Below are positions 34,091 to 56,470 of a DNA stretch of 64,000 nucleotides, in pieces (the stretch's first letter is position 1; each line of letters starts with the position of its first letter). A program made the translations under genes and the position numbers. The stretch comes from Lutraria lutraria (taxonomy: Eukaryota > Mollusca > Bivalvia > Venerida > Mactridae): contig OZ026839.1 of the NCBI GenBank assembly GCA_964023205.1, positions 15,034,386 to 15,098,385 on the forward strand, read 5' to 3'. The notes beneath the pieces were generated by a model that saw only the letters and a list, made by a program, of their open reading frames with translations, searched no databases and had not been told where the DNA came from.

Positions 34091-34131
34091 GTATTAACAT
34101 CTGGGAGTAGTAATGGGCGTAACCCTGGTAC

Positions 34132-34168
34132 CATTTGTGTGTGTGTGCGTGCGTGCGTGTGTGTGTGT
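34132..34168. repeat. GT/GCGT microsatellite
   Basis: TTGTGTGTGTGTGCGTGCGT type run directly before AGACTTAGAC at about 34,169. It may mark the junction between host repeats and the viral element. Confidence 0.7.
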
Positions 34169-34210
34169 AGACTTAGACAATGAGAGAATTTTCTTTCGAA
34201 AAGACATGGT

Positions 34211-34226
34211 GGCCCTGAAAAGGGCC
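34211..34226 (-). terminator. Histone-type 3' stem-loop
   Basis: On the minus strand GGCCCTTTTCAGGGCC: 6 bp stem, loop TTTC, flanked by CCAAC before and ACCA after. It lies 38 nt past the stop codon at 34,264. About 12-20 nt further on is CGAAAGAAA (34,199-34,191), matching the purine-rich histone downstream element that pairs with U7 snRNA. This is the arrangement of replication-dependent histone mRNA 3' ends. Confidence 0.85.
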
Positions 34227-34263
34227 GTTGGTCATGGTTTCTTCATAGCTGTTAGTCGGATCT

Positions 34264-34962
34264 TCATTTCTTTATTTCTTTACCATACTTGCCCCGAGGT
34301 TGTTTCTCAAGGTCATGTTTTCGTTTCTTCGTTTCTGTCATCTCCGGTTTCTTTTTCTCATGCTCCGGTTTCTTTTTCTCATGCTCATGCTTTCGTTTCT
34401 TTGAATCATACATAAACTGTACAGGTACAATCATTTCTTGTGGCTTAAACCGTACTTCTTGATTCTTCATGAGTCTGACCATCTCTTGCATGACTTGATT
34501 CATTTGTACCATTTCTTCCCTGATACCTTGTAGAACAGACAATCCCGTTGTAGGCTTTGCATCACCCATTGTATTAGACTGTTTATCCGTCATAAGCTGT
34601 GTATTCGCCATAGGCTGTATAGGCTGTGTATTCACCATAGACTGTGTATTCGCCATAGGTTGTATAGGCTGTGTATTCGCCATAGGGGGTTGTGTATTCG
34701 TCATAGTGGGTTGTACATCTACCATAGGCTGTACATCTACCATGGGGGGCTGTACATCTACCATGGACTGTTGACTGTACTTGGGCAGGCTGTACAGTGG
34801 TTGACTGTATTGGCTGTACTGTGGTTGACTATACTGTAGTTGATTGTACTTTGGCTGGTTGTACTTCGGCTGGTTGTAATGCATACCCGCATTCGGGTCT
34901 ATCAACTCGGATGATTCTGGTGCTTCTCTCAATACATCGTATGGCATGTTGAAGGACTCCAT
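34264..34962 (-). CDS. Y/Q-rich repetitive protein of the viral element
   Basis: 232 residues from ATG 34,962, chosen over the upstream ATG at 35,079 because a TATA box sits at 35,005-34,998, inside that longer frame. Residues about 28-75 are repeats of YNQPK/YSQPQ type. Residues about 75-145 are MVDVQP/MANTQP repeats. A short amphipathic stretch (EEMVQMNQVMQEMVRLM) follows, and the end is a dense Lys/His/Glu tail with KKRKH motifs that would serve for nuclear entry. No family is recognised. Such a disordered, multivalent protein could act as a scaffold or core component; that is inference. It ends with a histone-type stem-loop. Confidence 0.7.
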   Translation of the reverse strand: MESFNMPYDVLREAPESSELIDPNAGMHYNQPKYNQPKYNQLQYSQPQYSQYSQPLYSLPKYSQQSMVDVQPPMVDVQPMVDVQPTMTNTQPPMANTQPIQPMANTQSMVNTQPIQPMANTQLMTDKQSNTMGDAKPTTGLSVLQGIREEMVQMNQVMQEMVRLMKNQEVRFKPQEMIVPVQFMYDSKKRKHEHEKKKPEHEKKKPEMTETKKRKHDLEKQPRGKYGKEIKK

Positions 34963-34997
34963 GCTAGATAATGAAAAAATAGTGTCTGCGCCGGGGG

Positions 34998-35005
34998 TAT
35001 TTATA
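34998..35005 (-). promoter_or_regulatory. TATA box of Y/Q-rich gene
   Basis: TATAAATA on the minus strand, 35 nt upstream of ATG 34,962, the same spacing as at the polymerase gene. Confidence 0.75.
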
Positions 35006-35093
35006 CTTTTTGCCTGCACGCGCCAGTGTTCTATTAGGTCAAGGTTATTTTTGACAAGTTTTTTGAATAAGTGTGACACTTCAAACAGTTTGA

Positions 35094-35137
35094 CACGTCA
35101 AGGTCAATTGTTACACGTCAAGGCCGACACGTCAAGG
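35094..35137 (-). promoter_or_regulatory. Triple CCTTGACGTG upstream motif
   Basis: CACGTCAAGG (plus strand) at 35,094-35,103, 35,114-35,123 and 35,128-35,137, about 90-130 bp upstream of the TATA box. Each contains TGACGTG, a bZIP/CRE-like half site. Confidence 0.5.
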
Positions 35138-35159
35138 TTATATTGTACACATCATACTA

Positions 35160-35455
35160 ACACAGCAATTTGAATACATCATACAATCACAGCACTTTGT
35201 AGAAAATATCATACATCATACTATCACAGCACTTTGCAGACTGTATACTTAATATATACTATCACAACACTTTGCAGACTGTATACTTAATATATACTAT
35301 CACAGCACTTTGTAGAAAATACATCATACAATCACAGCACTTTGCATACATTTGTTGAAAATGATTGTACATCATACGATCACAGCAATTTGCAGACTGT
35401 ATACATTTGTTGAAAATGATTGTACACATCATACTATCACAGCACTTATATTTGT
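35160..35455. repeat. ATCACAGCACTTTGCA repeat array
   Basis: Nine or so copies of a CATACTATCACAGCACTTTG-type unit at irregular spacing of 30-60 bp, linked by GACTGTATACTTAATATA and TTTGTTGAAAATGATTGTAC. It lies upstream of the Y/Q-rich gene and could be a regulatory array or part of a terminal or replication-origin region. Confidence 0.65.
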
Positions 35456-35593
35456 GGGAAATGTTTATAGAAAACTTACCTCACACCGTATATTAAGTTT
35501 GTATTTGGTGTTATCAGATAGGACTGTAAATATAGTAGTAAAGTATGATAATATTGACAATATGAGAGTGATTCTTTCTGAATTGTATGGGGG

Positions 35594-35631
35594 GGCCCTG
35601 AAAAGGGCCGTTGGTGGTCCTGAAAAGGACC
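35594..35631 (-). terminator. Tandem histone-type 3' stem-loops
   Basis: Minus strand: GGTCCTTTTCAGGACC (35,631-35,616), then ACCAAC, then GGCCCTTTTCAGGGCC (35,609-35,594), starting 20 nt past the stop codon at 35,651. CAGAAAGAAT, a histone-downstream-element-like sequence, lies at 35,580-35,571, 14 nt after the second loop. The two stems differ by a compensated change (GGTCC/GGACC versus GGCCC/GGGCC), so pairing has been kept. Confidence 0.85.
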
Positions 35632-35650
35632 GTTGGTGCTTGTATGGAGA

Positions 35651-35977
35651 TTAATGGCGTTGACCGCATCTCCCCATACAAGCGGGACACCACTTGTCCC
35701 ATTTCTGTACATCCTTCGGATCTGGCGTGGGTTGGTACAGGTTCGACGGAACCTCTACCAGTTCATCTTCCCAGTTCTCTGGGGTTGATTCTTGGGGGGT
35801 ATCCCCCCAGTCCTCTTCCCCAGAGCAGACCTCAACCTCCTCTACAAACTTCTCCTTCCCCTCTCTCAGCTCTTTCACCTCCAAGCGTAGCTCTTCTAGC
35901 TGCATCTCCAGCTGCTCAATATACCGCCCTAAGGCAGCATATTTTCTTTTAATAATGTTGAGTGTTCTCTGTGACAT
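35651..35977 (-). CDS. Acidic coiled-coil protein of the viral element
   Basis: 108 residues from ATG 35,977 (AAGATGTCA; good context). A longer frame starts at 36,046, but that start overlaps the promoter repeats. Residues about 5-50 form a leucine/isoleucine-rich coiled coil (YIEQLEMQLEELRLEVKELR). Residues about 55-85 are acidic (EEDWGD, ENWEDE). The end has DKWCPACMGRCG, a possible partial metal site. Unknown family. It is divergent from the MGN gene at 36,174, and both use histone-type 3' ends. Confidence 0.65.
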   Translation of the reverse strand: MSQRTLNIIKRKYAALGRYIEQLEMQLEELRLEVKELREGKEKFVEEVEVCSGEEDWGDTPQESTPENWEDELVEVPSNLYQPTPDPKDVQKWDKWCPACMGRCGQRH

Positions 35978-36036
35978 CTTGATACAGAATGAAACTAGAT
36001 CAAGGCAAGGCCACTGACTATGATACAAGGACTCTG

Positions 36037-36113
36037 ATTGGTCCATTTTAACAGTATTTCATTGGTCCAATTTAACGGTATTTCATTGGTCTATTTTAAT
36101 GACATTTCATTGG
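36037..36113. promoter_or_regulatory. 24 bp repeats, each with a CCAAT box
   Basis: ATTGG (CCAAT on the minus strand) occurs at 36,037, 36,061, 36,085 and 36,109, exactly 24 bp apart, each inside a unit of ATTGGTCYATTTTAAYRRY type. It lies between two divergent genes. Reiterated CCAAT boxes are typical of histone promoters. Confidence 0.75.
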
Positions 36114-36173
36114 TCTGTTCTAGGTCAGTGTTTTTTTCATGTTCCATAGCTCATTTATGTTTCATGATTCAAC

Positions 36174-36404
36174 ATGGGCAACTGCTTGAAAAGTTCTTCT
36201 GATGAACCTGATGAGTTACAAGAAGATGTTTGGGTGGTCAAGATGGGTAATTTGTACCCAAACTTGTCTGAATTTCAAGATGCATGTGTAGAAGTGAAGA
36301 TGGATATCAAGATGGGTAATTTATACCCTGACCTTGCCATTTACTATGATGAGGATTTGAGAGCCAACTATTGGCGATACTTATTTCTTGCAGAAATGCA
36401 ATGA
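36174..36404 (+). CDS. MGN protein, possible myristoylated small protein
   Basis: 76 residues starting MGNCLKSS, where Gly2 and Cys4 are in place for N-myristoylation and palmitoylation (the Ser is at position 7, so the match to the usual signal is not perfect). Two internal repeats begin KMGNLYP (residues about 23 and 46), so half the protein is a duplication. It is otherwise acidic, with an aromatic C-terminus (YYDED, NYWRYLF). Unknown family; membrane attachment is inferred. The stop codon is 10 nt before a histone-type stem-loop. Confidence 0.65.
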   Translation: MGNCLKSSSDEPDELQEDVWVVKMGNLYPNLSEFQDACVEVKMDIKMGNLYPDLAIYYDEDLRANYWRYLFLAEMQ

Positions 36405-36414
36405 ATTACCCAAC

Positions 36415-36430
36415 GGCCCTTATTAGGGCC
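36415..36430 (+). terminator. Histone-type 3' stem-loop (variant loop)
   Basis: GGCCCTTATTAGGGCC: the same 6 bp stem with loop TATT, preceded by CCAAC and followed by ACCA as in the other two sites. CAAGCAAAGA, close to the consensus CAAGAAAGA downstream element, is at 36,460-36,469, about 30 nt away, which is farther than usual. Confidence 0.75.
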
Positions 36431-36495
36431 ACCATATGTGTTAGATTCGTTTTGTTTCTCAAGCAAAGACAAAAGCATATTACATTGTCTATCAT

Positions 36496-36631: not shown

Positions 36632-36982
36632 TTACACAAAGTCACTCACAGTTTTTGTTGGATTCTTTTTGTATTTACGTTTTTTCTTACTCTGTTCTGC
36701 GTCCTGCAGGTCGACCTGTTCACCTTGTTTCTTAGGACAGTCTGCGATGAAATGTCCTTGTTCATGACAATAAAAGCATTCATTGTTGAAGGGTTCCGTA
36801 CAGCTGGTAGAATAATGTCCTTTCTTTCCACAACGATAACACTTGATATGATCCCATGTTACATTTTTCTGTCCACAAAGCTGATCCGCTAAGTTGTTGA
36901 GCTCTTTAATTTTCTTCTTTAATGAATACATCAAAGTTTGATCTCGGTTCTCTTCAACTTGATTCATTTTAGGATCGCTCAT
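36632..36982 (-). CDS. Double CCHC zinc-knuckle protein
   Basis: 116 residues. Two knuckles are visible: CYRCGKKGHYSTSC (residues about 49-62) and CFYCHEQGHFIADC (about 69-82), each C-x2-C-x4-H-x4-C. The N-terminus (residues 1-45) is charged and possibly helical, and the C-terminus is Lys-rich (SKKKRKYKKNP). Retroviral nucleocapsid and CNBP-type proteins bind single-stranded nucleic acid with such knuckles. It is transcribed away from the polymerase gene through a shared 108 bp region, which suggests an early role, perhaps single-strand binding during replication (inference). Confidence 0.8.
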   Translation of the reverse strand: MSDPKMNQVEENRDQTLMYSLKKKIKELNNLADQLCGQKNVTWDHIKCYRCGKKGHYSTSCTEPFNNECFYCHEQGHFIADCPKKQGEQVDLQDAEQSKKKRKYKKNPTKTVSDFV

Positions 36983-37090: not shown

Positions 37091-40000
37091 ATGTCAGATA
37101 CCGACAGTACTAGTGGTGAGGATGAACCTCCAACTAAACGAAGCAAGGTTGAGCCTGTGCGCGACTATTATGACATACAGTCACGCATGGAAAGAAAGTC
37201 AAGGAAATTCAAGACTCAATCCAAAGTATATGATGTGACATTTCAGCCGTATAATCAATCGTTTGAATTTACAAACAGGTTGTTTAATGATATGATGGAT
37301 CAGCTCTACAAGAGATGTGAAGTGAAGTCGAATGATCGAGTTCGAGTATCTATTCTACATCCTGATTTGGACTTTGGGATACATGTTCCGTTTAATAGGG
37401 CATCTCGTATTAGTGGAGATACATTGTTGGATGAAATTGAACGTGTGGCACAAAGTAACCGTCAATTTAAAATTCATGATGGGGCGGCACAGATGGAAAT
37501 TACGCATATTGCTATGCCACAGGGATCCGGAAAGAAAACGTTCAAGGCATCAAACTTATTCAGTATGCGGAAGTCAAAGACAAGTGTTGTGTGTATTGAC
37601 AATAGTAAGGACTCTATGTGTTTAGCTAGATCAATTGTGGTAGGACGGTGCAAAATACATGAAAATCAAACCCCGGAATGGAAAAAACGATGGAATCGTA
37701 TACGTCAGCCTAAGAAAAATCTTCAAAAATACGAAGCCGCAGCATTATTAAAGCAAGTGGGTATTTCATTTGATCAGTCGTGTGGTATAGAAGAATACCA
37801 AAAACTACAGGACTATCTCTATCCGAGCTATGTGATTAAAATCCATCCACAACATTATGGAAGTGAATTGTTATTCAAACCACCTGCTCTGACTGAAAAA
37901 AGTCGTGTGATTCATATCTTTCACCATGATAATCATTATGACTGTATCGTATCCATCACCGGATTTCTCGGACGGGTTTATTATTGTGAATGGTGCGATA
38001 TCAGTTATGATCACCGTGAAGGACACCAGTGTAGCCATATTTGTCAGTGTTATGCTCACACCATGTGCCCAGCAGGACAATCTATAAGATGTCCGGATTG
38101 CCGTCGCCTATTTCAGAGTCAGGCATGTTTTGACAATCATAAAACAAAAACGGGAAAACAACGTAAAACCATTTGTGAATCCGTATGGAATTGTAAGAAA
38201 TGTGGGCAAAAGGTGCTTGGAACGAAACGGAATCACGTTTGTCCAGGGACAAAGAAATGCAGGTGTTGTAAAGTCATAGTAGGACCAGATCATGACTGTT
38301 ACATTCCAACGTATGAACCACCCGATAGAAAACAACCAGAAGTACCATTCATCTTTTTTGATTTTGAATGTCGTTTTGATTCTGGAGAACATATCCCTAA
38401 TTTTTGTGTGGCTCAACGTGCTTGTGGTGACTGTATGTGTAAGTCAGTGTAAGCTCCATGTGAGTATTGTGAAGAGGTGAATGAAGCCAGGCAAATGACA
38501 TTCCGTGGTGAAAATACGTTACAACAATTCTGTACTTGGCTATTCCTCCCTACCCATCGAGGATCGACAGTGATAGCCCACAATGCTCAAGGCTATGACG
38601 CTCAGTTTATTCTTAGATATGTGGTCACTCAGGGGACGGCGAAACCCCAGTTGATTATGAATGGTAGTAAAATCATTCAATTGAGAGTGCATGGAATACG
38701 CATGATTGACTCCCTCAGTTTCCTGAGTATGCCTCTCTCCTATTTTCCCAATACATTTGGACTGACCGAGTTAGCCAAAGGATGGTTTCCATTCTATGCA
38801 AACACCTTGGCGTATCAAGATTATGTGGGACCTTATTTGCCGCTACACTTTTACAAACCGGATAGTATGAAACCAGAGCGACGTGAAGAGTTTTTAACCT
38901 GGTACAATGAAAGAAAAGGTGACGTATTTGATTTTCAAAAGGAAATGGAGAAATACTGTCAATCGGATGTGGACATTTTAAGGCGCGGATGTGGAGAATT
39001 TCGTCAACAATTATTGGACAGTGATCAAATAGATCCATTTACTGAAGCTACCACATTAGCTCAAGTGTGTAACAAAGCCTGGCGCAAAAATTCCATGCCA
39101 CCTCATAGTTTAGCTGTGATTTCTGATGCCGGGTATCCCAATAAAACCCGGTATTCCATGAAAGGCATACGTTGGCTACAAATGATGGCTGTCACCGAAG
39201 AGATACATATTCGACATGCCTTGAATAACAAAGGCGAAGTCAAAATTGGACCTTATTACGTGGATGGCTATTGTCAAGAGACCAACACCGTGTATGAATT
39301 CATGGGATGTTGGTACCATGGATGCCCCACCTGTTTTCCTAACCGAAGCACCATCAATCCGTATACTTTGAGAAGCATGCAACAGGCCTATCACGATACG
39401 TATAAGCGACTGAAGACTTTGAAAGAACAGGGGTACCCTGTTGTGGTCATGTGGGAATGTGAATTTGATCAGCGTTGTCAAAAGGATCCTGCCTATAAGA
39501 CAAGAGTGGAACGATTCTATCATGGTCAAGACCCGATACAACCCAGGGAAGCTTTGTTCGGAGGTCGTTCGAATGCCGTCCGACTGTATCATGAAGTAGA
39601 CAACGATCAAGAAATCAAATATGTGGATATTTGTTCTCTCTATCCGTATGTGAACAAGTACAGGGCTTATCCGATAGGTCATCCAGTGATCATGAGTCAA
39701 GAACAAATTGATCAACAGCATATTGAGAAATACAAAGGACTGATTAAATGCCGTGTTCTACCCCCGCAAGATTTGTGGATGCCTGTCTTACCCATACACT
39801 GCAATAGCAAAATGGTGTTTACGCTATGCCGTACCTGTGCTGAGAAGGAGATGGATTATTGTACACATTCCCCGTATGAACGATTCTTGTATGGCACATG
39901 GACTCATGTTGAATTGGCTAAAGCTTTTGCTTTAGGCTATCAAGTATCAAAAGTGTATCATGTATGGCACTGGGATGAATGGAGTACGGACGTCTATCGG

Positions 40001-40882
40001 CAATACATTGACAAATACTTGAAAATGAAACAAGAGGCTAGTGGATATCCTCCAGGGGTGGATACGGAAGAGGCTCAAGATAAATTTAAACAAGATTATT
40101 TTGAAGCAGAAGGAATTCGTTTGGAACAGGTGGAGAAAAATCCAGGAAAACGAGCTTTTGCCAAAACCATGTTGAATTGTCTCTGGGGTAAAAATGCTCA
40201 AACCAACCTCTTGCCTAAAACAGAGTATGTTCATCGATTGGACCAGTTCTACGGAATACTGAACGATCCTAAAAAGTCTGTGAAATATGCAGAGTGTTTT
40301 GATCATGATGAATTCATGTTAATGAATTATACTGATGAATCGGACAAAGCAGACCCTCATTCATCATCCAATCCTGTGGTGGCTTCATTTGTGACGGCTT
40401 ATGCTCGATTAGAACTGTACAAAGTGCTTGAACCTCTAGGAAAGAGAGTACTGTATTTTGACACAGACAGTTGTATGTGCATTCATGACCCTGATGGCTA
40501 TAATGTTCCTATTATCTCCAGTCGATTGGGAAAATGGACAGATGAGGTACCAAAGGGTCGTATTGTGAGATATGTCGCTTTAGGTCCAAAGAACTATGGC
40601 TATGAATACATTGAAAACGGTGAACTCCATCAAAAATGCAAAGTGAAAGGCATTACGTTAGACTACAATGCCACTCAACAAGTGAATTTCAATACGATGG
40701 TGGATTGTGTGAAAGACAGACATAATTATTCGACCGTAGTTGAATATGCTTCTCGGATTAAACGTCATAAGGACAGAACCGTGACCAGTGAGAAACAAGT
40801 CAAAACATTTCGTTCGGTGTATACCAAACGTATTGTGGTCGAGAATCATATGACTGTGCCTTATGGTTATCTACATGACTGA
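37091..40882 (+). pseudogene. Protein-primed family B DNA polymerase, one in-frame stop
   Basis: A single frame of about 1,263 codons is broken only by TAA at 38,450-38,452. The N-terminal 250 residues are the usual Polinton leader (CLARSIV near residue 178), followed by Cys/His-rich zinc-binding segments (residues about 297-410). 3'-5' exonuclease motifs are FFDFECRFD (before the stop), IAHNAQGYDAQF and YCQSDVDIL. Polymerase motifs are A, DICSLYPYV; B, KTMLNCLWG; and C, YFDTDS. All catalytic carboxylates are present. It would replicate the linear genome from a terminal protein. The single stop makes this copy defective unless read through. The gene lies upstream of the duplicated block, so there is only one copy in the window. 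Confidence 0.92.
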
Positions 40883-41568: not shown

Positions 41569-41828
41569 GTTTATATTACATTTTGGATTTTGAGCTGTAT
41601 ACGGATACGTTATACAGTATTGTACAAGATGACCTTGTTAAGGTCAAGGACATTCGCGCGTGGATTCTGAACCCTCACACGTTTGAACTATTTAGACAGA
41701 TGATTCGTGATGCTATGATCAGTGCACACTTAGACTTGAAAGCTATCCATCGAGACGATTGGAATACTTATGTATGTAACGATAGAGTGATTCACACGAT
41801 TCAAGAATGGAACAGTTTGATATTATGA
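41541..41828 (+). CDS. Unknown small protein, copy 1
   Basis: 95 residues from ATG 41,541. It overlaps the F-box-like gene by 28 nt and the next gene by 22 nt, in different frames. It is basic at the N-terminus, then mixed helical; no domain is recognised. The left edge of the tandem duplication (41,578) falls inside it, so only this copy keeps its start. Confidence 0.6.
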   Translation: MVKPSRRFISLYYILDFELYTDTLYSIVQDDLVKVKDIRAWILNPHTFELFRQMIRDAMISAHLDLKAIHRDDWNTYVCNDRVIHTIQEWNSLIL

Positions 41829-42169
41829 ACCATACCCTGTTGAGAAAAGCATTGGTATTTGCTTATCGTATGAAGATACCTGAAGGTCATCATTCTCTGG
41901 AATGGATTCGACAACAGTTGAGTACACCAGACATGTTTGAAGAAATGAAACATGGACTTCATGTGATGAATTCGTTTTATAAACAATCAGTACCCATGGA
42001 CTTGAGTGAAACGGATTGGTTCAAAAAGGTGGTGAACAATGACTCTGTGTTAACATTTCTGAGTCAATCTGGACATTCAGAATGTGTGTTTGAATTTTCT
42101 GACAAACTGTTGTTACCCTTACATGACATCTGTTGTTCTTGTTGTGATTATTCTTGTATTCATACATAA
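41807..42169 (+). CDS. Unknown small protein with Cys-rich end, copy 1
   Basis: 120 residues, helical in look, ending CCSCCDYSC, which could bind metal or be lipidated. Start ATG 41,807 overlaps the preceding gene by 22 nt. AATAAATAAA at 42,231-42,240 is an ordinary polyadenylation signal for this transcript. No family recognised. Confidence 0.6.
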   Translation: MEQFDIMNHTLLRKALVFAYRMKIPEGHHSLEWIRQQLSTPDMFEEMKHGLHVMNSFYKQSVPMDLSETDWFKKVVNNDSVLTFLSQSGHSECVFEFSDKLLLPLHDICCSCCDYSCIHT

Positions 42170-42280
42170 ACTTGTTATATAGTCATAAACATTCATGTTG
42201 TAAAGAACTCAATCATAAACTTGTTACACAAATAAATAAAATGTTTTTCTTCCAATAGTGTTAGTTGTGATTTTCACGTC

Positions 42281-42919
42281 ATGGAGTCCAGTTTACTTTT
42301 TAAGCATCCTTGCAATATGTTTATCTCAGGCCCTAGTGGCTCTGGTAAAACACAATTTGTAAAAAAGGTGTTGGAATACAAATCAGATTTGTTTCAAGTA
42401 GTACCAGAGCGTATTGTATGGTGTTACAAAGAATGGCAAGTAGCCTATGCACAGTTACAAGAACAAGAACCTAGTATTCGGTTCATACAGGGGATACCTG
42501 ACGAGGATGAAGAGATAGTAGAGGATACATCCATTCCTCATTTAATTATATTTGATGACATGCTTGGTGATAAAGATGAAGAGAAAACCAAATTATTGTT
42601 TACACGAAAAGGACCATCGTAATGCTAGTGTGATCTACATTACACAAAACATGTTTCAACAATCGAAAGCCAGTCGTACCCTGAGTTTAAATGCACATTA
42701 CATGATCTTATTTCAAAACACAAGAGATAAAGGACAAATCAAAGTGTTGGCGAATCAAATTCAATTGCCACACTTGTTACCCGCTTATCAACCTCATTAT
42801 TACCTCATGGGTATTTAGTGATTGACTTTCACCCTCAAACACCAGACAGTTATCGGTTAAGAACAGATATTTTTCATCACTGGATCACTGGAGAACGTGG
42901 GCCAGTTGTGTATATATAA
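42281..42919 (+). pseudogene. Packaging ATPase (A32/FtsK-like), copy 1, broken
   Basis: Starts with Walker A GPSGSGKTQFV (residues 17-27) and has Walker B LIIFDDML (about 88-95). Compared with the second copy, a 2-base loss near 42,612 changes frame and causes TAA at 42,620, and a 4-base loss plus changes near 42,790-42,805 restores the original frame to the end. ATPases of this kind pump DNA into capsids. This copy would give only a 113-residue stub. The intact counterpart is at 54,641. Confidence 0.88.
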
Positions 42920-42920
42920 A
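42911..42920 (+). promoter_or_regulatory. TATA box overlapping ATPase stop
   Basis: TATATATAAA, 40 nt upstream of ATG 42,951; it contains the ATPase stop codon TAA. Repeated at 55,277-55,286 in the second copy. Confidence 0.65.
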
Positions 42921-42950
42921 CGACATTCGTTTTGAGATCATTCAGTCATC

Positions 42951-44066
42951 ATGTCAGCCACAGCCATAGCTCAATCGTTAGAACATTTGGGTCAGGAACG
43001 AGACCCTACTGTACGGGAGCAAATGCTACGGTCTGGATTAAAAGAAATGCTCAAGTGGTTCACCTTAGCAGCAAAGGTGATTTTAAAAAAGAAAATTGTG
43101 CTACCTAAACAAACACAAAACTTTATGCAAAAACATCAGCATGAATTAGAGCAGCTAGGAGATGATCAAGTGGACATGGATACTAAACGTCAACTCATAT
43201 TGAAACCAGGAGGAGGTGGATTTCTTGGTGGAGTCATGATACGAAGTTTACTCCGATGGAATGGTCAAAAGACGATTCGTAAATTCGGAGCAAGAAAATC
43301 TCCAGCTAAAAAACCTAGAAAAGCGCCAGCTAAAAAAGCTAGAAAAGCCAGAAAATCTCCAGCTAAAAGAGCAAGAAAAGCACCAGCTAGAAAATCTCCA
43401 GCTAAAAAAGTAGTCAGAAAATCGCCTGCCAAGATCAATGAACGTTTTATTACTCTCCGTCGTCGAAAGCAAACCACTTCAACACCCTCTATAGCTGTAA
43501 CTCCAATCAGTAAGTTACAATGGTCTCCTATCAGTCCTGTGAGTAGTTTGAGTTTGAGTTCTTCAAGAAATTCATCTAGAAGTGGACCAAGCAGTTTGAG
43601 TTCTTCAAGAAGTTTATCTAGAAGTTATTCAAGCAGTGGGCCAAGTAGAAGTTTTACTTCTCAGAATTCATCTAAAAGCTCTTCTAGAAGTTCGCCAAGT
43701 AGTTTAAGTTCTTCAAGAAATTTATCTAGAAGTTCTTCAAGCAGTGGGCCAAGTAGCTTCAGCTAATCTAACAGTGGACCAAGTAGTTTATCTAGGAGCT
43801 CATCTCAAAATTCATCTAGAAGTTCGCCAAGTAGCTTCAGCTCATCTAACAGTTTGAGTTCATCCAGTAGATCATCTAACAGTTTGAGATCATCTCCCAG
43901 TTCAAGAAGTTCACCAGACACTCCATTGTGCCGTTTTTCACCCCTATCCTTGTCTACCTTATCAAGACAGGCTGTCTTGAAACCCCTTTTGAGACATCGT
44001 ATTCACCTGATGAGACAGGGCCCTATGGGTCCAGCTTCAAGACAAGCCTTTGATGCTTTAGTATAA
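42951..44066 (+). pseudogene. Histone-H1-like basic core protein, copy 1
   Basis: 271 residues to TAA 43,764-43,766. The same frame then continues open to TAA 44,064, so the inner stop is likely a mutation in one of the Ser-rich repeats; both copies share it. Residues about 1-100 form a helical domain ending KPGGGGFLGG, resembling the protein at 44,105. Residues about 108-160 are KSPAKK/KAPAKK repeats as in histone H1 tails and sperm basic proteins. After that come SSRSS/SGPSS repeats. It probably condenses viral DNA like adenovirus core proteins (inference). Ser-Arg repeats suggest control by phosphorylation. Confidence 0.75.
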
Positions 44067-44069
44067 AAG
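44062..44069 (+). promoter_or_regulatory. TATA box overlapping a stop codon
   Basis: TATAAAAG includes the distal stop codon of the basic-protein frame and lies 43 nt before ATG 44,105. Same at 56,428-56,435. Confidence 0.65.
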
Positions 44070-44104
44070 CTGTGAAGAAGTAAAAACAGGTATTATTTGA
44101 CATA

Positions 44105-44476
44105 ATGGCACCAAAGCGACCACTCCTGCATAAATACGGACATCTGGTTTTGGGTTTAACTCAAGCCCCAGATGGGTTAAGAAGAAAGATGATACATGGA
44201 GCATCTAAAGAAATGATTCAATGTGTGGCAGAATGCTGTCAGAATGTTATAAAAGGCAATGTTGCCTTATCCCCCTCTCAAAAGCAAAGGTTGAAGTCCA
44301 AGCGTCAACATCTCCGCACTTTAGCAGATAAAAGAGTATCCATTCAAAAAAAGAAACGTGTGTTGAATCAAAAAGGAGGATTATTTCCATTACTGGCTCT
44401 TGCTCCAATCATTGCTAAAGCTGTTGCTGCTGGAGCACTCAGTGGAGGTGTTGCCACACTGGTGAAAAAGATATGA
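44105..44476 (+). CDS. Polinton small protein with QKGG motif and hydrophobic tail, copy 1
   Basis: 123 residues. Helical basic region (residues about 25-80), then KKKRVLNQKGGLFPLLALAP and a hydrophobic Ala/Gly-rich segment to residue 118. I recall this layout (basic helix, K-K-x-L-x-x-Q-K-G-G-F/L-hydrophobic) from a small protein common in animal Polintons/adintoviruses. The hydrophobic tail could disrupt membranes like adenovirus protein VI peptides; this is a guess. Its stop overlaps the next start (ATGA). Confidence 0.7.
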   Translation: MAPKRPLLHKYGHLVLGLTQAPDGLRRKMIHGASKEMIQCVAECCQNVIKGNVALSPSQKQRLKSKRQHLRTLADKRVSIQKKKRVLNQKGGLFPLLALAPIIAKAVAAGALSGGVATLVKKI

Positions 44477-45217
44477 AGAAAATGGCTATCGTCCCGTTCA
44501 AAATGCTAGAAGAGATGAATCGATGGAAAACAGAACAACGACCACGTTTACCTCCTCCCCCGCAAGTCAGTCAAACATCCGATTTACAGAAACAAATGGG
44601 AGACGTATTACAAAATGAATCGTTGTCTGAATCAGAAAAAGCACAACAATATGGCCAAGTCTTGCAAAGGTTTCAACTGTCTCATCAAAAAGCACGTGAA
44701 CCGGCTACTCTGGCTGCACCGGTTGCACCGGTTGTTCCAGCTGCTCAAGGGGCACAAGGGGCTCCTGCTACATTGACGGATCGGATTCTTGAAAGTGTTC
44801 CTACTACCATGCATCGAAAAACTCAGCAGCTTTTATTACACTTTCTACAAAATCATCCCCACATGTCATGGAATGATCAAGGGATGTTGGAATACCATGG
44901 AAAACCAATACAAGGATCCAACATTATTGATTTGGTCAATGATGTCATACGTCATAGAAAAGGGTCAGAGCCTGCCTAGAGGATGGGAACAGTTTTCTAG
45001 TGGACTAAGAGATGTCAATGTACCACAAGAAGTGATAGGAAATAAACGGAGATGGTCATGGATGCAAAAAGCAGACGACTCGGAGGAAGATGAATTCTTT
45101 GATAGTTTTGTTGAGCCTCCTTCACCTATAAGTAAACCTGCCAAACGGATGAAAGCAGAACCTATAAGTAAACCTGTCAAACAGATTAAAGCAGAACCTA
45201 AGTGGGAACCCTACTAG
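44473..45217 (+). pseudogene. Polinton conserved protein, frameshifted, copy 1
   Basis: The first frame (44,473-44,979, 168 residues) starts KMAIVPFKML, has a Pro/Ala-rich middle, then SWNDQGMLEYHGKPIQGSN and DVIRHRKG. A frame change near 44,955-44,970 moves the coding into a second frame carrying PRGWEQF and VPQEVIGNKRRW, then an acidic segment (DSEEDEFFDSF), to TAG 45,215. This protein is frequent in animal Polintons; its role is unknown to me. The tail has two repeats ending RMKAEP and QIKAEP, both psi-K-x-E sumoylation consensus sites. Confidence 0.75.
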
Positions 45218-45222
45218 ACAAC

Positions 45223-46084
45223 ATGAACAAAAAGGTAGACAGTCTGTTACATCAGATTTGTTATGATCCCCACCATCCGGCTGGTTTTGGTGGGGTAGAA
45301 CGTCTTACTACAGCAGCTCGAACTCAACTGAAATCCATTACGCCAAGTCAAGTGCGATCCTGGTTGAAGGGACAAAAGACCTATACCCTGCACAAACCTA
45401 TCCGTAGGGCATTCTCGAGACGGAAAACGATTGTGGGTGGTATTGATCATCAATGGCAAGCTGATTTGGCAGACATGCAATCCCTGGCTCAGTACAACAC
45501 CCCTTATCGATATTTGTTGTGTGTCATTGACGTGTTTTCAAAATATGCTTGGGTAGTTCCCCTCAAGGATAAACGGGGCTCACATTGGTGGAAGCGTTTC
45601 GCTCTATTCTTAAAACGAGACAACCTAAAGCGTTGCAAACCGATAAAGGAACAGAATTCAAGAATCAAAGGTTTCAACAGTTTTTAGACAAAGTAGGGAT
45701 TCATTATTTTACGACTGAAAACCCAGAAACTAAGGCTAGTATAGTGGAACGTTTTCAACGGACATTAAAATCACGCATGTGGAAATACTTTACGCATCAT
45801 AAAACACGAAGGTATATTCAGGTATTGCCTGATCTCGTGCATGCCTATAATCATCGTGTTCATCGTAGTATACAAATGGCACCCGTATCCGTGAATGAGA
45901 ATAACGAATCTCAAGTGGCCTTGACCTTGTATGGAAAATCAAGAAAGAAAGCGTCGACGACCCTTCATGTGGGAGATATTGTTCGTATCAATAAAACAAA
46001 ACGTACATTTGATAAAGGTTATCTACCCAACTGGACCACTGAACTGTTTAAAGTGATCCAAGTCAAAAAGACCTCTCCTGCTAC
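45223..46084 (+). pseudogene. Retroviral-type integrase, copy 1, frameshifted and split
   Basis: ATG 45,223 is chosen because the upstream in-frame ATG at 45,202 lies inside the preceding gene. The first part (to about 45,590) includes the catalytic core start WQADLADM (first Asp). After a 1-base frame change near 45,585-45,600 the second part has LQTDKGTEF (second Asp) and KASIVERFQ (Glu), giving a D,D-35-E core. It continues into an SH3-like region (GDIVRINKTK). The LINE interrupts it at 46,085, and the C-terminal chromodomain lies beyond it at 51,474. Integrases of this type insert Polinton DNA into the host genome. Confidence 0.9.
46079..46084. other. LINE target-site duplication, left
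   Basis: TGCTAC, repeated at 51,468-51,473. Removing everything between the two would bring the integrase and chromodomain frames together. Confidence 0.8.
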
Positions 46085-46512
46085 CTGTAGGTCTTCAATT
46101 AGGCAGGCCGCTTGAAACAGAGCAGACGTGCGCTCTACGCTTAAATATCAATGAGCCGATTTATAATCATGGAGACAACTGATCTGTTGAAGAGTGTGAT
46201 CTCTGCTGAATCAGAGTACTTTATTTACTTTATTTAACATAACCACAATGAGAAGTGGACTTTGTGAATATGTGTTTATAGTGTTAAAAGGTTGATAGTT
46301 TAGGAATAATTTTGGATATAAACTGAGTTTTTCATCAATTTCTCTATACATAAACCATTGTGTATAAACGCTTGACTGATTTCAATACCATTGAATACAC
46401 AGTGACTATTGTAATGGTCGAATGAGTTATAATCTGTGTTGGATTAATACAAAGTGTACTGATGGGCTATTATTGAAAATTTCTACGGAAGCGGATAGGG
46501 GACAAAATAATC

Positions 46513-47718
46513 ATGGGAATTGATGTTAATACATATCGTGCTAGAATTGGTGTGTTCGCACTGTCTTCAAAAAAGAACAAACAACAAGTCAAACAGAAAT
46601 ATGAGAAATATAATAAATTCACAACAGGATCCGACATTCACCTGAGAACCTTTATATGTGGTGTATACGCATTATTCTTGGTATCAGCATTAGGTGGCAT
46701 TATGATTGCACATGAATGGTTGCTGGAAAACTTATCAGAGTCACATGCAGATATTTGTACGTGGACATCATCGTCATTACATGGGACTATGCAAGGTTAT
46801 ATGTCATCCTGTGTTCCGTTTGGTGGACTGTGTAGTTACTATTATATACGTATACTAATACTATCGTCAGATGTTGAAACGAACCCTGGTCCTACACATA
46901 GTCCGGGTATGAATAGTGATCCTGAGGACCCAATGATTGATCCAAATACAAGATTGATTCTAAATGCTATAGCTGAAACTAAAGCAGAAGTTAAATGTGT
47001 TAAAGAGCAGGTGGTATTTGTTCAAAGAGAGCTCAGTAATCTGAAAGACGAAATTATGTCAGTAAAGCAGAAAGTTGATTGCCTTGAATATGGACAAGAA
47101 GTACTCAATGACGATGTTGCGACGTTGTCTCTTGCAAACGAAGTGAAGGAAGAGCGTTTAACAAATATTGAAATTCAGTTAAATATCATGGAGTCGGAAA
47201 AATTGAAATCGTCACTACGGATTTTTGGACTCGAAGAAGCTGAATCAGATCTGAAACCTTTGAAGCAAGTGATATCTGAAAATGTTTTAGATGTAGCTGG
47301 GAACCCGGATGAGATTAACAGTGATTCAATCATAAATGCTAAAAGGGTCGGTGTATTGAAAGTCGACGAACCACGAATGGTAATTGTAAAATTTAAAAAC
47401 AGTGAACATAAATTTGAATTATTCAACCACAGAGAAACGTTGAGAAGCAGAGGAATCCGAGTCTCGAATGATCTGTCCTTCCTTCAACGACAGAAACTAA
47501 AAGAGCTTAAGAAGAAGGGACTATCTGGTTACTTTAAAAATGGCAAACTTGTATCGTTTAAACCGAAGGCAGCAGTGATGACAGGCGACTTTGATGGACA
47601 ATCTCGTACGTTTAAACGAGCTGCAAGACATAAGGATAATAGATCTGATCACATTATGGAGATTGTGACTTCTGGGGACGATGGACCAGCTGAGATTGAC
47701 CAACATTCTTCCAGATAG
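46513..47718 (+). CDS. LINE ORF1 with 2A peptide, copy 1
   Basis: 401 residues. Hydrophobic segment TFICGVYALFLVSALGG (about 46-62), then a ribosome-skipping motif DVETNPGP at residues 120-127, with the break expected between Gly126 and Pro127. A coiled coil follows (about 150-220), then an RRM/C-terminal region like L1 ORF1 proteins (LRIFGLEE at about 238, FKNSEHKFELF, RSRGIRVSNDL). These proteins bind RNA and chaperone it during retrotransposition. 2A motifs are known in ORF1 of several APE-type LINE clades. It ends at TAG 47,716, with ORF2 continuing in the same frame. Confidence 0.85.
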   Translation: MGIDVNTYRARIGVFALSSKKNKQQVKQKYEKYNKFTTGSDIHLRTFICGVYALFLVSALGGIMIAHEWLLENLSESHADICTWTSSSLHGTMQGYMSSCVPFGGLCSYYYIRILILSSDVETNPGPTHSPGMNSDPEDPMIDPNTRLILNAIAETKAEVKCVKEQVVFVQRELSNLKDEIMSVKQKVDCLEYGQEVLNDDVATLSLANEVKEERLTNIEIQLNIMESEKLKSSLRIFGLEEAESDLKPLKQVISENVLDVAGNPDEINSDSIINAKRVGVLKVDEPRMVIVKFKNSEHKFELFNHRETLRSRGIRVSNDLSFLQRQKLKELKKKGLSGYFKNGKLVSFKPKAAVMTGDFDGQSRTFKRAARHKDNRSDHIMEIVTSGDDGPAEIDQHSSR

Positions 47719-50700
47719 GATAAAGGTCAACGCCCTGCACAAGTAGATAGTGAAATACGTTTTTTATCTTGGAACATTGAAGGTCTAAAATCTAAATTAT
47801 TTTCAACTGATGCTATTGAATTTATAAAAGAATATGATGTTATTGGTATACAAGAAACTTGGGACTGTGACTCAGATTATCTTAACAAATACTTCAATGA
47901 ATACACACTTTTTTCTATTAATGCTAAAAAATCTCTTGTTGGAGGCAGGCCTATGGGCGGTGTTACGGTTTTGGTAAAATGCAATATTGCTAGTCATTTT
48001 AAGCGAGTATGTGACAAATTTAGTTTTGGGGTGATATTAGTTATAGATAGAAACTTATTGTCTTTGGATAGAGATGTTCTTTATGTATCTTTATACTTAC
48101 CACCAGCTTCTTCACCAGTCTATAATGACCAATCAACGCCTGTGTTGCAACAATTGGAAGATCATATTATAAGTAACAACTTTTTAGATTTTGAGCTACT
48201 CTTATGTGGTGATTTTAATGCCAGAACTTCAAATCTTCCTGACTTTACGGAATGTTCTGACAACATCCCAGAATTGGAAGAATTTAGTGCTGTGATTGAC
48301 AATAATATGGAAATTGAACGAAAATCGTGTGACACTAAAGCTAATAAGTTTGGTTATGATTTGTTAGAATTTTGTAAGGTATTTTCGTGTTATATTGTGA
48401 ACGGTCGTTTGAATAGACATGACGGAGGTGATGGATTCACGTTCATTAACCAAAATGGGTGTAGTGTCATAGACTATTATATTGTGTCTAAAATGTTGTT
48501 TGATATGATTAGATTGTTTGAGATAAACTCATGTACTGAAAGTAGCCATTTTCCTTTATCCATGATTGTCAATGTAGGTCAGGGCCATATACGTGAAACT
48601 AATTATACTCATAATGATATGTTCTATGATCTAAATCAGGATAATTGTGATGCTTATTTAAATTGTATATCTGAAAATATTTTGAATGGGCATTTTACGA
48701 GCTTAGATAATATGCTTACAGATGCTGATACAAATATAAATATTGTTTTGCAAGAATTTGAAAGTGTCATTTGTAAAAGTAGTACAAATTTTCAAAGGAT
48801 AAGACGAAAATGTAAACCAAAGAAAAATAATGAATGGTTTGATGTAGAATGCATACAGGCAAAACGTAATACTAGGAAACTCTTGAAAAGGTTCCGAAAA
48901 CACAGGAGTGATGAGAATTTAAGTGATTATGTACAAAGTAAATGCAGATATAAAAATGTTTGTAGACATAAACGAATGTTGTACAACAGGAAATACTTAC
49001 ATAGAGTAGAATCCTCTGTAAATAATTCCCGAAAGTTTTGGAGTGAAATTAAACGGGTTTTAAATAAACCTAAATCGGAGAATATTATATCTCTGGACAA
49101 ATGGTATGACCACTTTAGTATTTTATTTTCAAATACTACTGTAACTAATCATGTTTGTGATAACATATGTGACACTTTTGATAATGATGTTGATTTAGAC
49201 GTTATTGAACAATTAATTTTTAACTCTGACATTACCGATGAAATATTAAACGGTATAAAGGCGTTGAATATAAATAAAGCGACAGGAGGTAATCTAATAC
49301 CCCAGCAATTAGTGTATGGTGTACATGTATTGCTACCATTTGTACGAAAACTATTTAATAGATTGTTTTCCGGGGGAGAATTTCCAGATAACTGGGCAAA
49401 ATCGGTCATAATACCACTACATAAAAAAGGCAGTTTTAACAACCCGAATAATTACAGGGGTATAGCATTACTTGATGTTTTTAGTAAAGTGTATATATCA
49501 ATTATTACAAAAAGACTTACTTTTTATGTTGAAGCTTATAACATCCTATCGGAATCCCAAGCAGGATTTAGAAGTGGGTATACTACAGTTGATAATGCCT
49601 TTGTTTTATACTCTGTTGTAAGTAAATATTTGTGTGTGAAAGGAAAAGGTGTATATGTTGCATTTATCGATTTCCAAAAAGCCTTTGATTCGGTTGATCG
49701 TTCGATTTTGTATGATGTATTAAAAAGAAACCGTTTAAAGGGACATTTACATGTCCAGTTGGCTTACGTCAGGGATGTAGCCTAAGTCCAATTTTATTTG
49801 CATTGTTCATAAATGAATTGTATTCAATGTTAAGTGAAAGTAACACAAGAGGGATTCAGTTATTTCCTGATATTGTTGAAATTTTTCTGCTTATGTTTGC
49901 AGACGATATTGCTTTAATATCTGATGCTATTGTTGGTTTACAAAAACAATTAAATATACTTCATCGGTTTTGTTTGAAAAGTAAACTTATTGTAAATAAC
50001 ACCAAATCAAAAGTACTTGTGTTCAAACGAGGTGGTAGGATGTCTCGGAAAGAAATTTGGTCATATAATGGCAGACAATTAGAAATTGTCAATGGTTTTA
50101 CTTATGTTGGGATGTTCTTTTCAAATAGATTGTCAATGTATAAAATGGCAGAAAGCATGTCTGTGAAAGCGAAAAAGGTTCTTATGTTCATTCTTAGTTC
50201 TTTTCAACATCTTTCTTGTTTACCTTATAACACATTTTTTAAAGTATTTGACTCAAAAGTTGCTTCTATAATGTTATACGGCTCTGAACTTTGGGGCCCA
50301 AAACACCCTCAATGTATAGAATCATTACAAGTATATGCATGTAAAAGATTTTTGAATGTCAATATGATTGCATGTAATGATGCTGTACTTGGGGATACAG
50401 GGAGATACCCTATGTACATATATGCTTCAAAACGTTGTTTAAAATATTGGTTAAGATTAGTGAATCTACCTAGGGATAGATATACAAGACTATGTTACGA
50501 AATGCTTGTGTACTATGATAACTTAGGATATGAAAACTGGGTAACTGATGTTAAGCGTAATTTATTCAAAATGGTTATGGCTATGTATGGGAAGCCCAAA
50601 ATGTTGATAATCAAAAACTATTTTTAATGCAATATGTACAAACTTTAAAAGACAAGTTCGTACAGAACTGGCATTCTAGATGTAGAGATAATATAAAACT

Positions 50701-51094
50701 TCATTACTATAGCAACTTTAAACTTTTTTTTGATGTTGAAAAATATATTAATGTTATTGATGTAGAAAAGTTTAGAAATTGCATGGCAAGATTTCGCAGT
50801 TCCTCACATTATTTAATGATAGAGAAAGGAAGACATTATAAGATTCCAAGAGAATATCGTGTATGCATGTATTGTGAAACCGCATTAGAAGACGAATATC
50901 ATTTTATGTTATTGTGTCCGTTATACACTGATATTCGTAAAAAATATTTACCTATTTATTATCATAACCATCCGACTTTAGAAAAGTTCTATGCCTTGAT
51001 GTCATTGGAAAATGTACATATAATTAGAAATGTTGCAATGTATGTCTATTACTCATTTGAAGAGAGAGATGGTTATTTAGAAATGTTCAGATAA
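47719..51094 (+). pseudogene. LINE ORF2 endonuclease/reverse transcriptase, copy 1
   Basis: Open directly after the ORF1 stop, in the same frame. Endonuclease motifs: LSWNIEGLKSK, GIQETW, LLCGDFNART, IDYYIVS and SSHFPLSM. Reverse transcriptase: NNYRGIALLDVFSKVY, ESQAGFRSGYTT and FIDFQKAFDSVDR. The frame closes at 49,783. Some tens of residues between the FDSVDR region and PVGLRQGCSLSPILF (other frame, about 49,757 on) are missing, so there is an internal deletion with a frame change. FADDIALI follows at about 49,900. A second frame change near 50,620 leads to the C-terminal zinc-binding part (CMYCETALEDEYHFMLLC). This copy cannot make an active enzyme. Confidence 0.88.
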
Positions 51095-51473
51095 AATGAA
51101 AATATGTCGTTGTTATACGTCAATGTTGTATTATATTGATTGTATTTCAATGTCATAACCTCATGTATTGTGTTAATCTCAAGTTGTATATTATATATAT
51201 AACTTTAGAAATGTTCTATGCCTTGATGTCGTTGGAAAATGTACGTATAATTAGAAACTTTTGTAATGTATGTCTAAATATTACTCTTTTAAAGAGAGAT
51301 ATGGTTATTTAGAAATGTTCAGATAAAATGAAAATATGTTGGTGTTATATGTCAATTTTGTATAATATTGATTGTATTGTCATGTCATAACCTCATGTAT
51401 TGTGTCAATCTCATGTTGTATATATTGTGTTTGGGCCGGAGGCCATAAAATGCAAATAAATTGAAATTGCTAC

Positions 51474-51684
51474 TGTGAAATTGACTGATTTAGACGGAGA
51501 ACCCATATTAGGTTCGTTTTATTTCTCTGAAGTACAGGTTATAAAAGATGATGCCATCTATGAAATTGAATCAGTGCTCGCACATCGTCAGAGTAAGGTA
51601 GACGGAAGACGAGAAATTAAAGTGCATTGGAAAGGCTATCCTTCGAAATTTGACAGTTGGATTCCTGAATCCCATCTCGTTTGA
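51474..51684 (+). CDS. Integrase C-terminal chromodomain, copy 1, cut off
   Basis: About 69 codons after the LINE. The chromodomain shows Y and E near IYEIESVLAHR, then VHWKGYPSKFDSWIPESHL, with the aromatic cage residues Tyr, Trp and Trp. Chromodomains bind methylated histone tails and guide integration to certain chromatin. It belongs to the integrase interrupted at 46,085 and has no start codon of its own. Confidence 0.88.
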
Positions 51685-53157: not shown

Positions 53158-54030
53158 ATGATGCAACACGGTTCCTGTGAATGTAGTAAGACAGAGTTGG
53201 ATGTGTCTGTTGTGCCACCTACCATGACAGCCATGCAAGAAGGTCAATGGACTGAGCATTATCCCATTTCTGCCCTGGACAATAATGCTCCGATTGAATT
53301 TGTGATTCCTGCACAGACAGAAAAATGGACTGATCTGAATCAATCTTACCTGTACCTAAAACTAAAAATTATACAGGCAGATGGTACAGACCTAGCGGCC
53401 GACAGTGAAATTGCTACCGTCAACAATTTCTTTCACAGCATGTTCTCAAGCATCGATGTGTACCTGAATAATAAACTGATCACCAGCAATGCGGACACGT
53501 ATGGCTATCGGGCATACATAGAAAATTTACTCTCCTTCACCTCAAGCTGTAAAGACACTCAGCTTCAGGCGCTAGAGTTATGGGCTGAAGACACCGCTGG
53601 TCATATGCTCGAAAAAGTACATGACGGGAATAACAAAGGCTATGCTGAGAGGCGTGCTCGTGTCCATCAAAGTCGTGTGGTGGAACTATGTGGACGGCTT
53701 CATTTGGATCTGATGATGCAGGATAAATATTTACCCAATGGTATGGAAATACGCTTAAGACTAAACAAAGCGTCACCTCAATTCTGTCTCATGAGTACTT
53801 CACCGGCTAAAATCAAGTTTCTAGAAGCAGGATTCAATGTAAGAACAGTAGATTTACTGCCAGTGGTAGCCAATCAACTCAATCAACAGATTGCTCAACA
53901 TAACATGAAAATTCCCATCCGACGAACTGAAGTAAAAACATTTTGGATTTTGAGCTGTATACGGATACGTTATACAGTATTGTACAAGATGACCTTGTTA
54001 AGGTCAAGGACATTCGCGCGTGGATTCTGA
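53158..54030 (+). pseudogene. Major capsid protein (double jelly roll), truncated by duplication junction
   Basis: The first 260 residues match the N-terminal jelly roll of Polinton/adintovirus hexon-like proteins: PIEFVIPAQTEKWTDLNQSY, VNNFFHSMFSSIDVYLNNKL, YGYRAYIENLLSF and, late, IPIRRTEVKTF. Family members are usually more than twice this long. At 53,938 the sequence switches to the inside of the small gene at 41,578, adding about 30 unrelated residues before a stop. The complete gene, if it exists, would be in the second copy right of the window. Confidence 0.9.
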
Positions 54031-55285: not shown

Positions 55286-55316
55286 ACGACATTCGTTTTG
55301 AGATCATTCAGTCATC

Positions 55317-56432: not shown

Positions 56433-56470
56433 AAGCTGTGAAGAAGTAAAAACAGGTATTATTTGACATA

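Follow-up and report, generated by a model that had tools for sequence, protein, structure and literature searches.

Do some genes of a virus-like mobile element end their messages in the manner of host histone genes? The question is raised by a 64-kb stretch of DNA from the bivalve Lutraria lutraria (referred to here as the window, meaning all 64,000 nucleotides analysed), in which the genes from position 34106 onward form, as judged from their sequence, a Polinton/adintovirus-like element. Histone mRNAs are presented in PMC12775136 as the one animal mRNA class that ends in a stem-loop without poly(A). Three genes of the element, called here gene A, gene 2 and gene 3, are followed by hairpins of this type, and these very probably serve the bivalve element as genuine mRNA 3'-end signals of histone type. 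The first-pass annotation of the window had placed four hairpins at 34,211, at 35,594 and 35,616 in tandem, and at 36,415 with the loop TATT; all four were found there, each 16 nt long, with a stem of 6 bp and a loop of 4 nt (34211-34226, 35594-35609 and 35616-35631 on the reverse strand, 36415-36430 on the forward strand), as were the purine-rich elements that it had described behind them. The features concerned are the following.

34189-34198, reverse strand: purine-rich downstream element CGAAAGAAAA, a candidate histone downstream element, inside the Rfam Histone3 alignment
34211-34226, reverse strand: histone-type stem-loop GGCCCTTTTCAGGGCC of gene A, Histone3 35.8 bits
34264-34962, reverse strand: gene A, an open reading frame (ORF) for a 232-amino-acid Q/P-rich repeat protein with a basic C-terminus
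35571-35580, reverse strand: purine-rich downstream element CAGAAAGAAT of gene 2, recognised by its conservation among copies
35594-35609, reverse strand: gene 2 stem-loop, distal of the tandem pair, Histone3 33.2 bits
35616-35631, reverse strand: gene 2 stem-loop GGTCCTTTTCAGGACC, proximal of the tandem pair, with a C-G to U-A exchange, recognised by hairpin pattern and pair counts
35651-35977, reverse strand: gene 2, an ORF for 108 amino acids, coiled-coil-like by eye, with a C-terminal Cys motif
36174-36404, forward strand: gene 3, an ORF for 76 amino acids starting MGNC
36415-36430, forward strand: gene 3 stem-loop GGCCCTTATTAGGGCC, Histone3 31.0 bits, within 26 nt identical in 29 of 29 copies
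36460-36469, forward strand: purine-rich CAAGCAAAGA past the gene 3 hairpin, a weaker candidate downstream element placed by its position

When the window was scanned against all 4,227 Rfam families, Histone3 (RF00032) matched at three places, 34185-34231 on the reverse strand (35.8 bits, E 1e-6, above the curated cut-off of 34), 35569-35614 on the reverse strand (33.2 bits, E 9.3e-6) and 36410-36455 on the forward strand (31.0 bits, E 6.3e-5), the latter two falling below the cut-off, and nowhere else in the 64 kb at E up to 5. Each match stands immediately 3' of the stop codon of one of the three Polinton genes, with the fourth hairpin in tandem, which bears out the earlier claim of histone-type stem-loops at three gene ends. 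The gap between stop codon and hairpin is 37 nt for gene A, 19 and 41 nt for the tandem pair of gene 2 and 10 nt for gene 3, and the purine-rich elements follow the hairpins after 12, 13 and 29 nt in genes A, 2 and 3, respectively. Allowing up to three mismatches, the hairpin occurs five times in the window (one site being counted in both readings, the second backwards) against 0.11 expected, and none of 100 shuffles reached five.

The bare hairpin is unspecific, so that the histone-type call depends on the flanks and on the place after a stop codon. The hairpin AAMGGCYCTTTTMAGRGCC, tried as proof in itself, was rejected: it occurs at nine loci in eight viral contigs, none of which reaches the Histone3 cut-off, all of them carrying an A-run directly 5' of the stem and none an ACC flank, and we infer that these are phage terminators. 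A second pattern returned one sequence, present in two contigs (L026 and L027), with no forward ORF end (of at least 40 amino acids) within 150 nt upstream, and was taken as chance.

The 728.5-Mb assembly containing the window holds 1,324 + 1,253 = 2,577 copies of the exact pattern AACGGYCCTTWTYAGGRCC, a total that takes in the host histone hairpins, whose loop the pattern permits, against 0 + 0 for the reversed control pattern. Among the Histone3 matches listed for the genome, 37 of 44 exceed the cut-off (75 of 131,090 candidates were scored). The hairpins belong to an element of about 16.9 kb with a fixed layout, seven hairpins standing at four gene ends, whose left end in the window is

34106-34231, reverse strand: end of the left terminal inverted repeat (TIR), starting AGTAGT, at the outward end of gene A, recognised by its terminus sequence and by target duplications elsewhere

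In the first terminal repeat gene A is followed by two hairpins; internally, gene 2 is followed by two and gene 3, on the opposite strand, by one with the loop TATT; and in the other terminal repeat a gene B, mostly of 152-166 amino acids, is followed by two, or by one in older-looking copies. Most terminal repeats examined hold two hairpins, while the window's left repeat holds one. The first-pass annotation's confinement of the signal to three genes of the left arm was correct as to those genes and too narrow otherwise, the first hairpin lying in the TIR and the opposite terminus carrying hairpins too, after gene B. Among the 100 places listed, from the first 36.3 Mb of contig 1, 14 complete copies could be told apart, 12 with seven hairpins and two with six, and one solitary hairpin site adjoins a remnant of gene A. 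The termini read 5'-AGTAGT (...ACTACT), with matching 6-bp target duplications in six of six element pairs; 6 bp is the length of target duplication given for Polintons in PMC10045372.

The place of the hairpin behind its gene is fixed, and this was observed directly in copies chosen in two ways. In copies picked by their hairpin, hairpins stand behind gene A in 16 of 16 distinct copies and start 11-76 nt past the stop codon, on the sense strand, in 54 of 54 distinct gene ends. Independently of the hairpin, the genome was searched with the gene 3 protein. This yielded 436 candidates and, as scored, 150 matches, of which 149 have no internal stop; the best 30 of the 150 were compared. The same 26-nt hairpin block starts 11 nt past the stop of gene 3 in 29 of 29 (the script recognised no gene 3 ORF in the remaining copy, L093), and among the 30 copies 29 have one or more hairpins behind gene 2 and 27 have two or more, the gene ending at a different stop in one copy (L085). 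Within this genome, related elements thus keep their hairpins behind the same genes, in line with the original reading. The intact gene 3 and the matching target duplications suggest recent or continuing activity of the element.

The genes with hairpins also differ from other genes of the element in their poly(A) signals. The comparison draws on a neighbour of gene 3,

36632-36982, reverse strand: CCHC zinc-knuckle gene, without hairpin and with a poly(A) signal (Pfam zf-CCHC 33.5 bits)

and on a gene labelled protease. Within 300 nt of the stop codon, AATAAA or ATTAAA is present at 1 of 113 hairpin gene ends (0/29, 1/25 and 0/59 in three sets, the first after dropping four doubly fetched rows, the first two picked by hairpin and the third by protein), whereas it is present at 12 of 12 ends of the protease gene (10/10, 2/2) and 40 of 40 ends of the CCHC gene (4/4, 8/8, 28/28). 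This split is a direct observation; since the copies are related, the effective comparison is of four hairpin genes with two poly(A) genes. Outside these 52 protease and CCHC ends, a poly(A) signal is absent from the 300 nt behind the capsid gene in nine rows, and the polymerase and integrase genes of the window have neither a poly(A) signal within 400 nt nor a hairpin of histone type; other genes follow behind all three. Histone genes of other animals, as PMC1924863 describes them, may carry a poly(A) signal as well.

Conservation among copies, likewise observed directly, follows the signal most clearly at gene 2, where identity in 29 copies is 95-99% through the hairpins and the purine-rich element (98.4% over 12 columns around CAGAAAGAAT) and then falls to 59%, with 59-76% later on. 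Twelve terminal repeats, picked by hairpin, are 99% identical in the hairpin, 92-94% in the next 36 nt and 63% in the remainder, the 16 nt holding the CGAAAGAAAA element reaching 94% pairwise identity against that 63%. At gene 3 the hairpin block has no variable column among 26, compared with 17 among the 160 columns of the codons before it (29 aligned copies); behind it identity is 96-98% to +110, 49% from +110 to +150 and then 91% and 87%, the CAAGCAAAGA stretch (97.8%) not standing above its neighbours. The stretch past this hairpin also serves the convergent CCHC gene. At least in genes A, B and 2, a conserved purine-rich downstream element follows the SLBP-type stem-loops.

The bases recognised in histone messages by the stem-loop-binding protein SLBP are the A residues 5' of the stem, the GG-CC stem base and the first and third loop bases, both U. 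Twenty distinct hairpins were collected, one of which, inside a long interspersed nuclear element (LINE) and present twice in the window, was excluded from the alignment. In all 19 others loop U3 is invariant, and this is the sole independent result among the contact bases: the AA that precedes the stem, its GG-CC base and loop U1, also invariant in 19 of 19, had been demanded by the collecting script. Loop position 2 (T, A, C), loop position 4 (C, T) and the third pair (C-G, U-A, U-G) vary. Covariation is modest, most stem pairs scarcely varying: a single pair has changed on both sides, which was matched by 407 of 500 shuffles, while the covariation score was matched by 2 of 500. This variation bears on a role of the terminal repeats at the level of DNA, as origin, integrase site or packaging site, with the likeness to histone ends accidental. 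The two hairpins in most of the terminal repeats read speak for such a role, but the same hairpins stand internally behind genes 2 and 3, oriented with the gene, one stem pair has exchanged C-G for U-A with loop positions 2 and 4 free to vary, and a distant element described below also has its hairpin behind a gene. We regard a DNA-level role as highly improbable.

The host's own histone genes were found in an array on contig C6, at about 24.99-25.10 Mb. Out of 47 histone matches, the ends of three genes were read there, H3, H2B and H2A as assigned by C-terminal sequence, and all three have the form AAC-GGCCCT-TTTT-AGGGCC-AC, starting 30-31 nt past the stop. The ends of the element are like histone mRNA 3' ends, the Histone3 family on which SLBP and U7 act, in stem-loop sequence, 5' flank, post-stop place and purine-rich downstream element, in the absence of a close poly(A) signal and in the stem itself, which by direct comparison is identical to that of host H3, H2A and H2B. 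They are unlike them in that their carriers are non-histone genes of a mobile virus-like element, in the frequent occurrence of two tandem hairpins with a 22-nt period, and in the loop, TTTC or TATT in the element versus TTTT in the three host ends. None of the proteins encoded by genes A, 2, 3 and B matches a histone family in Pfam. As loop and 3' flank both differ, the element hairpin is no fresh copy of the host histone ends read. The identical stem could suggest that the hairpins are a functionless relic of a captured histone gene end, but they occupy four gene ends with differing loops, recur in a distant element and are conserved at least as well as coding sequence, conservation falling steeply past the gene 2 downstream element; a relic seems extremely unlikely.

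The same comparison with the host bears on the hairpin rule of mimiviruses and virophages, by which any stable palindrome marks a 3' end and viral enzymes polyadenylate there. Polintons are related to virophages, and the element's hairpins, standing directly behind stop codons, resemble those that mark transcript ends in these DNA viruses. The palindromes under the hairpin rule, however, have no sequence in common and polyadenylation follows them, whereas the element's hairpins keep one histone-type consensus with its flanks, match the host histone stem and occur on a subset of genes only, and a Pfam scan of 20 protein pieces from the window showed no domain of a poly(A) polymerase or an RNA polymerase. 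That the hairpin rule accounts for the element's hairpins is accordingly very doubtful.

The host possesses SLBP: its RNA-binding domain (PF15247) was found directly at one place, C10:18184950-18185681, as two neighbouring pieces of 60.9 and 34.5 bits. A U7-like candidate lies at C18:11176273-11176321 and consists of AATTTATCTAG and a short 3' hairpin. Elsewhere in the host genome, at C12:22875000-22917000 (L046-L048), repeats of about 1.5 kb contain a gene of 109 amino acids (MPSRIQSLDK...SDSD) with no Pfam family, whose end lies about 40 nt ahead of a near-match to the histone hairpin, GGCCCTTTTCAGAGCC, followed by an element of the CAAGAAAA type; the hairpin was counted ten times in the pieces read. 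To judge from this sequence it represents another type of non-histone gene that ends in the histone manner; as a host-like tandem gene array outside the Polinton element it was set aside.

More distant relatives were sought with the element's DNA polymerase B (PolB). An alignment of PolB, run against bacterial and archaeal genome contigs, found seven Polinton pieces in bacterial metagenome-assembled genomes, which are taken as eukaryotic contamination. One of them, L019, is 8.9 kb long, its PolB is 35% identical, and Histone3 matches it at 35.8 bits (E 7.2e-7); no other match was reported in its 2.9-Mb bin (150 of 547 candidates scored). Its hairpin lies 28 nt behind an 89-amino-acid C2H2 zinc-finger ORF, beside integrase (rve, 40.2 bits, above the cut-off of 32.6), capsid-like and PolB genes, so that a second case in a distant element has been directly observed. 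Against viral contigs a single PolB query found no relatives, while the PolB alignment found nine distant loci (L010-L018), of which L014-L018 were checked by the hairpin script only; loose hairpins without an ACC flank occur once in L016 and once in L013. A capsid alignment against viral contigs gave 38 stretches fitting the pattern, none coding for a relative. One further viral contig, L009, carries two type II hammerhead ribozymes, at 13-80 and 5897-5960 (43.6 and 50.0 bits).

The first-pass annotation had known of no description of such signals in Polintons or adintoviruses. No paper describing a histone stem-loop with a Polinton or another transposable element was found in the open-licence literature, so this is weak evidence of absence; the statement needs amending in that a collection of Polinton-like viruses (PLVs) and virophages from 2025 counts six 'histone 3'UTR stem-loop' hits, none of them in cryptophyte PLVs (PMC12220804, section 16). 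These six are alike in being matches to the same RNA family in Polinton-related viruses, and unlike in that the section gives a bare count, without place, gene, function or discussion. The Histone3 match of 14.7 bits that a SARS-CoV-2 study (PMC7786107) reports from within a coding region is regarded as chance. We judge the element's hairpins to be a new use of a known signal.

Several observations weigh against reading the hairpins as histone-type processing signals. The sole candidate for U7 is sub-threshold, at 29.2 bits against a cut-off of 34, with six of 14 prokaryote control genomes also giving a match, and no clear pairing was found between this candidate and the downstream elements. 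Tandem hairpins are, to our knowledge, no usual feature of histone genes. At gene 3 the downstream element is more distant than usual, and the hairpin, with 96-98% identity continuing to +110, is not a sharp island of conservation. The copies of the family are related and do not count as independent cases. Among distant elements, the signal, which the first-pass annotation had suggested seeking in other Polintons, stands in L019, where AATAAA is present as well, 115 nt after the stop of the hairpin gene, but the other six pieces found by PolB (3.2-8.5 kb) have no Histone3 match at E<=1 and the four distant viral contigs L010-L013 none at E<=0.1. Weighed together with the flanks, the fixed place, the conservation and the poly(A) split, these points leave the annotation's reading of histone 3' processing supported at the level of sequence.

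The remainder of the element agrees with its assignment. Two further features are

36030-36120, no strand: intergenic stretch, a putative promoter, from which genes 2 and 3 diverge; CCAAT boxes about 24 nt apart
37091-40882, forward strand: DNA polymerase B gene in two reading-frame pieces, 37091-38452 and 38477-40882 (PF03175 131.8 bits, second piece)

Like Polintons (Mavericks) and adintoviruses, the element has PolB, rve integrase pieces, an A32-like ATPase, candidate capsid genes, TIRs and 6-bp target duplications; unlike those described in the open-licence papers searched, it has four accessory genes with histone-type ends. The first PolB piece matches no Pfam family. The best-scoring animal-named relatives of PolB are bivalve (Mercenaria 64%, Saccostrea 45%), and the PolB-C of a Rhodactis coral adintovirus is also among the relatives (43%). 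The ATPase matches Pox_A32 at 31.4 bits, above its cut-off, while the integrase of the window consists of two frame-broken rve pieces of 16.9 and 23.6 bits, under the cut-off of 32.6. The labels 'protease' and 'capsid' follow from position, known motifs and the relatedness of the L019 protein to others, Pfam giving no family. The product of gene A (queried from the second codon on) has no Pfam family either; gene 2, queried with the L037 copy in a search of 5.8 billion proteins, has two relatives at E<=0.001, 88 and 91% identical; and the MGNC start of the gene 3 product is one that we take to be myristoylation-like. The window's copy is damaged, PolB and integrase being frame-broken, a LINE inserted and a 10-kb stretch present twice. 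A non-LTR (long terminal repeat) retrotransposon with endonuclease and reverse transcriptase ORFs lies at about 46513-51094, behind the integrase gene, and 41578-51634 and 53938-64000 form a 10-kb direct duplication of 99.85% identity, with its junction inside the capsid-like gene, which may be a recent tandem event or an assembly artefact. Outside the element, at 14591-14687, a long imperfect palindrome with weak mir-266/mir-250 matches on both strands, far under the cut-offs, is probably a transposon relic.

Promoters of cell-cycle genes, histone genes among them, commonly contain CCAAT and CRE (cAMP response element) sites. The upstream region common to genes 2 and 3 contains CCAAT boxes, five in the window and three in L037, mostly at 24-nt spacing, and upstream of gene B are two TGACGTCA sites and one ATTGG. 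TATA boxes accompany PolB and the CCHC gene but gene A too, so that promoter type is no clean divider of the genes. The motifs hint at histone-like or cell-cycle-like control and are suggestive only. In L019, three TGACGTCA sites and one ATTGG lie at 7800-8040, upstream of the zinc-finger gene, as in the upstream region of gene B.

How such ends would act can be outlined from the histone pathway. Transcripts of genes A, 2, 3 and B would be cut by SLBP and the U7 small nuclear ribonucleoprotein (snRNP) just past the distal hairpin, leaving the mRNAs without poly(A) and with the proximal hairpin retained in the message. The histone mRNAs of C. elegans end 3-6 nt past their hairpin (PMC1924863). 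Where SLBP is present, in S phase and probably in oocytes and early embryos, these mRNAs would be stable and translated, and when replication stops they would be degraded along with histone mRNAs. Ordinary poly(A) signals would serve the CCHC gene and terminate the capsid/protease run. For the element, the benefit may be expression limited to DNA-replicating cells, or storage in the egg. Cleavage, a poly(A)-free state and coupling to S phase are what we infer from the signals: some of the element's mRNAs probably receive SLBP-bound, poly(A)-free ends of histone type that couple them to S phase, and the S-phase restriction and poly(A)-free ends put forward in the first-pass annotation would follow from the same reading.

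The signals might instead work for germline and embryo, through SLBP-bound storage in the egg and translation after fertilisation, and not for S phase itself. Eggs store histone mRNAs, and vertical spread of the element requires expression in the germline. For maternal histone mRNA, PMC12803260 states that its stabilisation has to be independent of the cell cycle. One and the same hairpin would serve germline storage and S phase alike, and the present results do not separate the two; a purely germline or embryonic use is considered rather unlikely. The fuller proposal, to which we give moderate credence, is a programme of two classes, in which accessory mRNAs would carry histone-type, SLBP-gated, poly(A)-free ends and be confined to replicating cells, or to eggs and embryos, CCHC and virion-protein transcripts would be polyadenylated, and the host S phase would be sensed via RNA 3'-end processing, a trait that would be common to distant Polintons of other animals.

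If the hairpins do act in this way, the histone 3'-end pathway would be open to takeover by a multicopy virus-like element, which would be, as far as we found, the first known mobile element on the metazoan histone pathway. Sequencing of poly(A)+ RNA would be blind to the hairpin-bearing genes, and these would offer natural non-histone, tandem-hairpin substrates for studies of SLBP and U7. It would also explain how an endogenous virus could time its expression to the DNA replication of its host.

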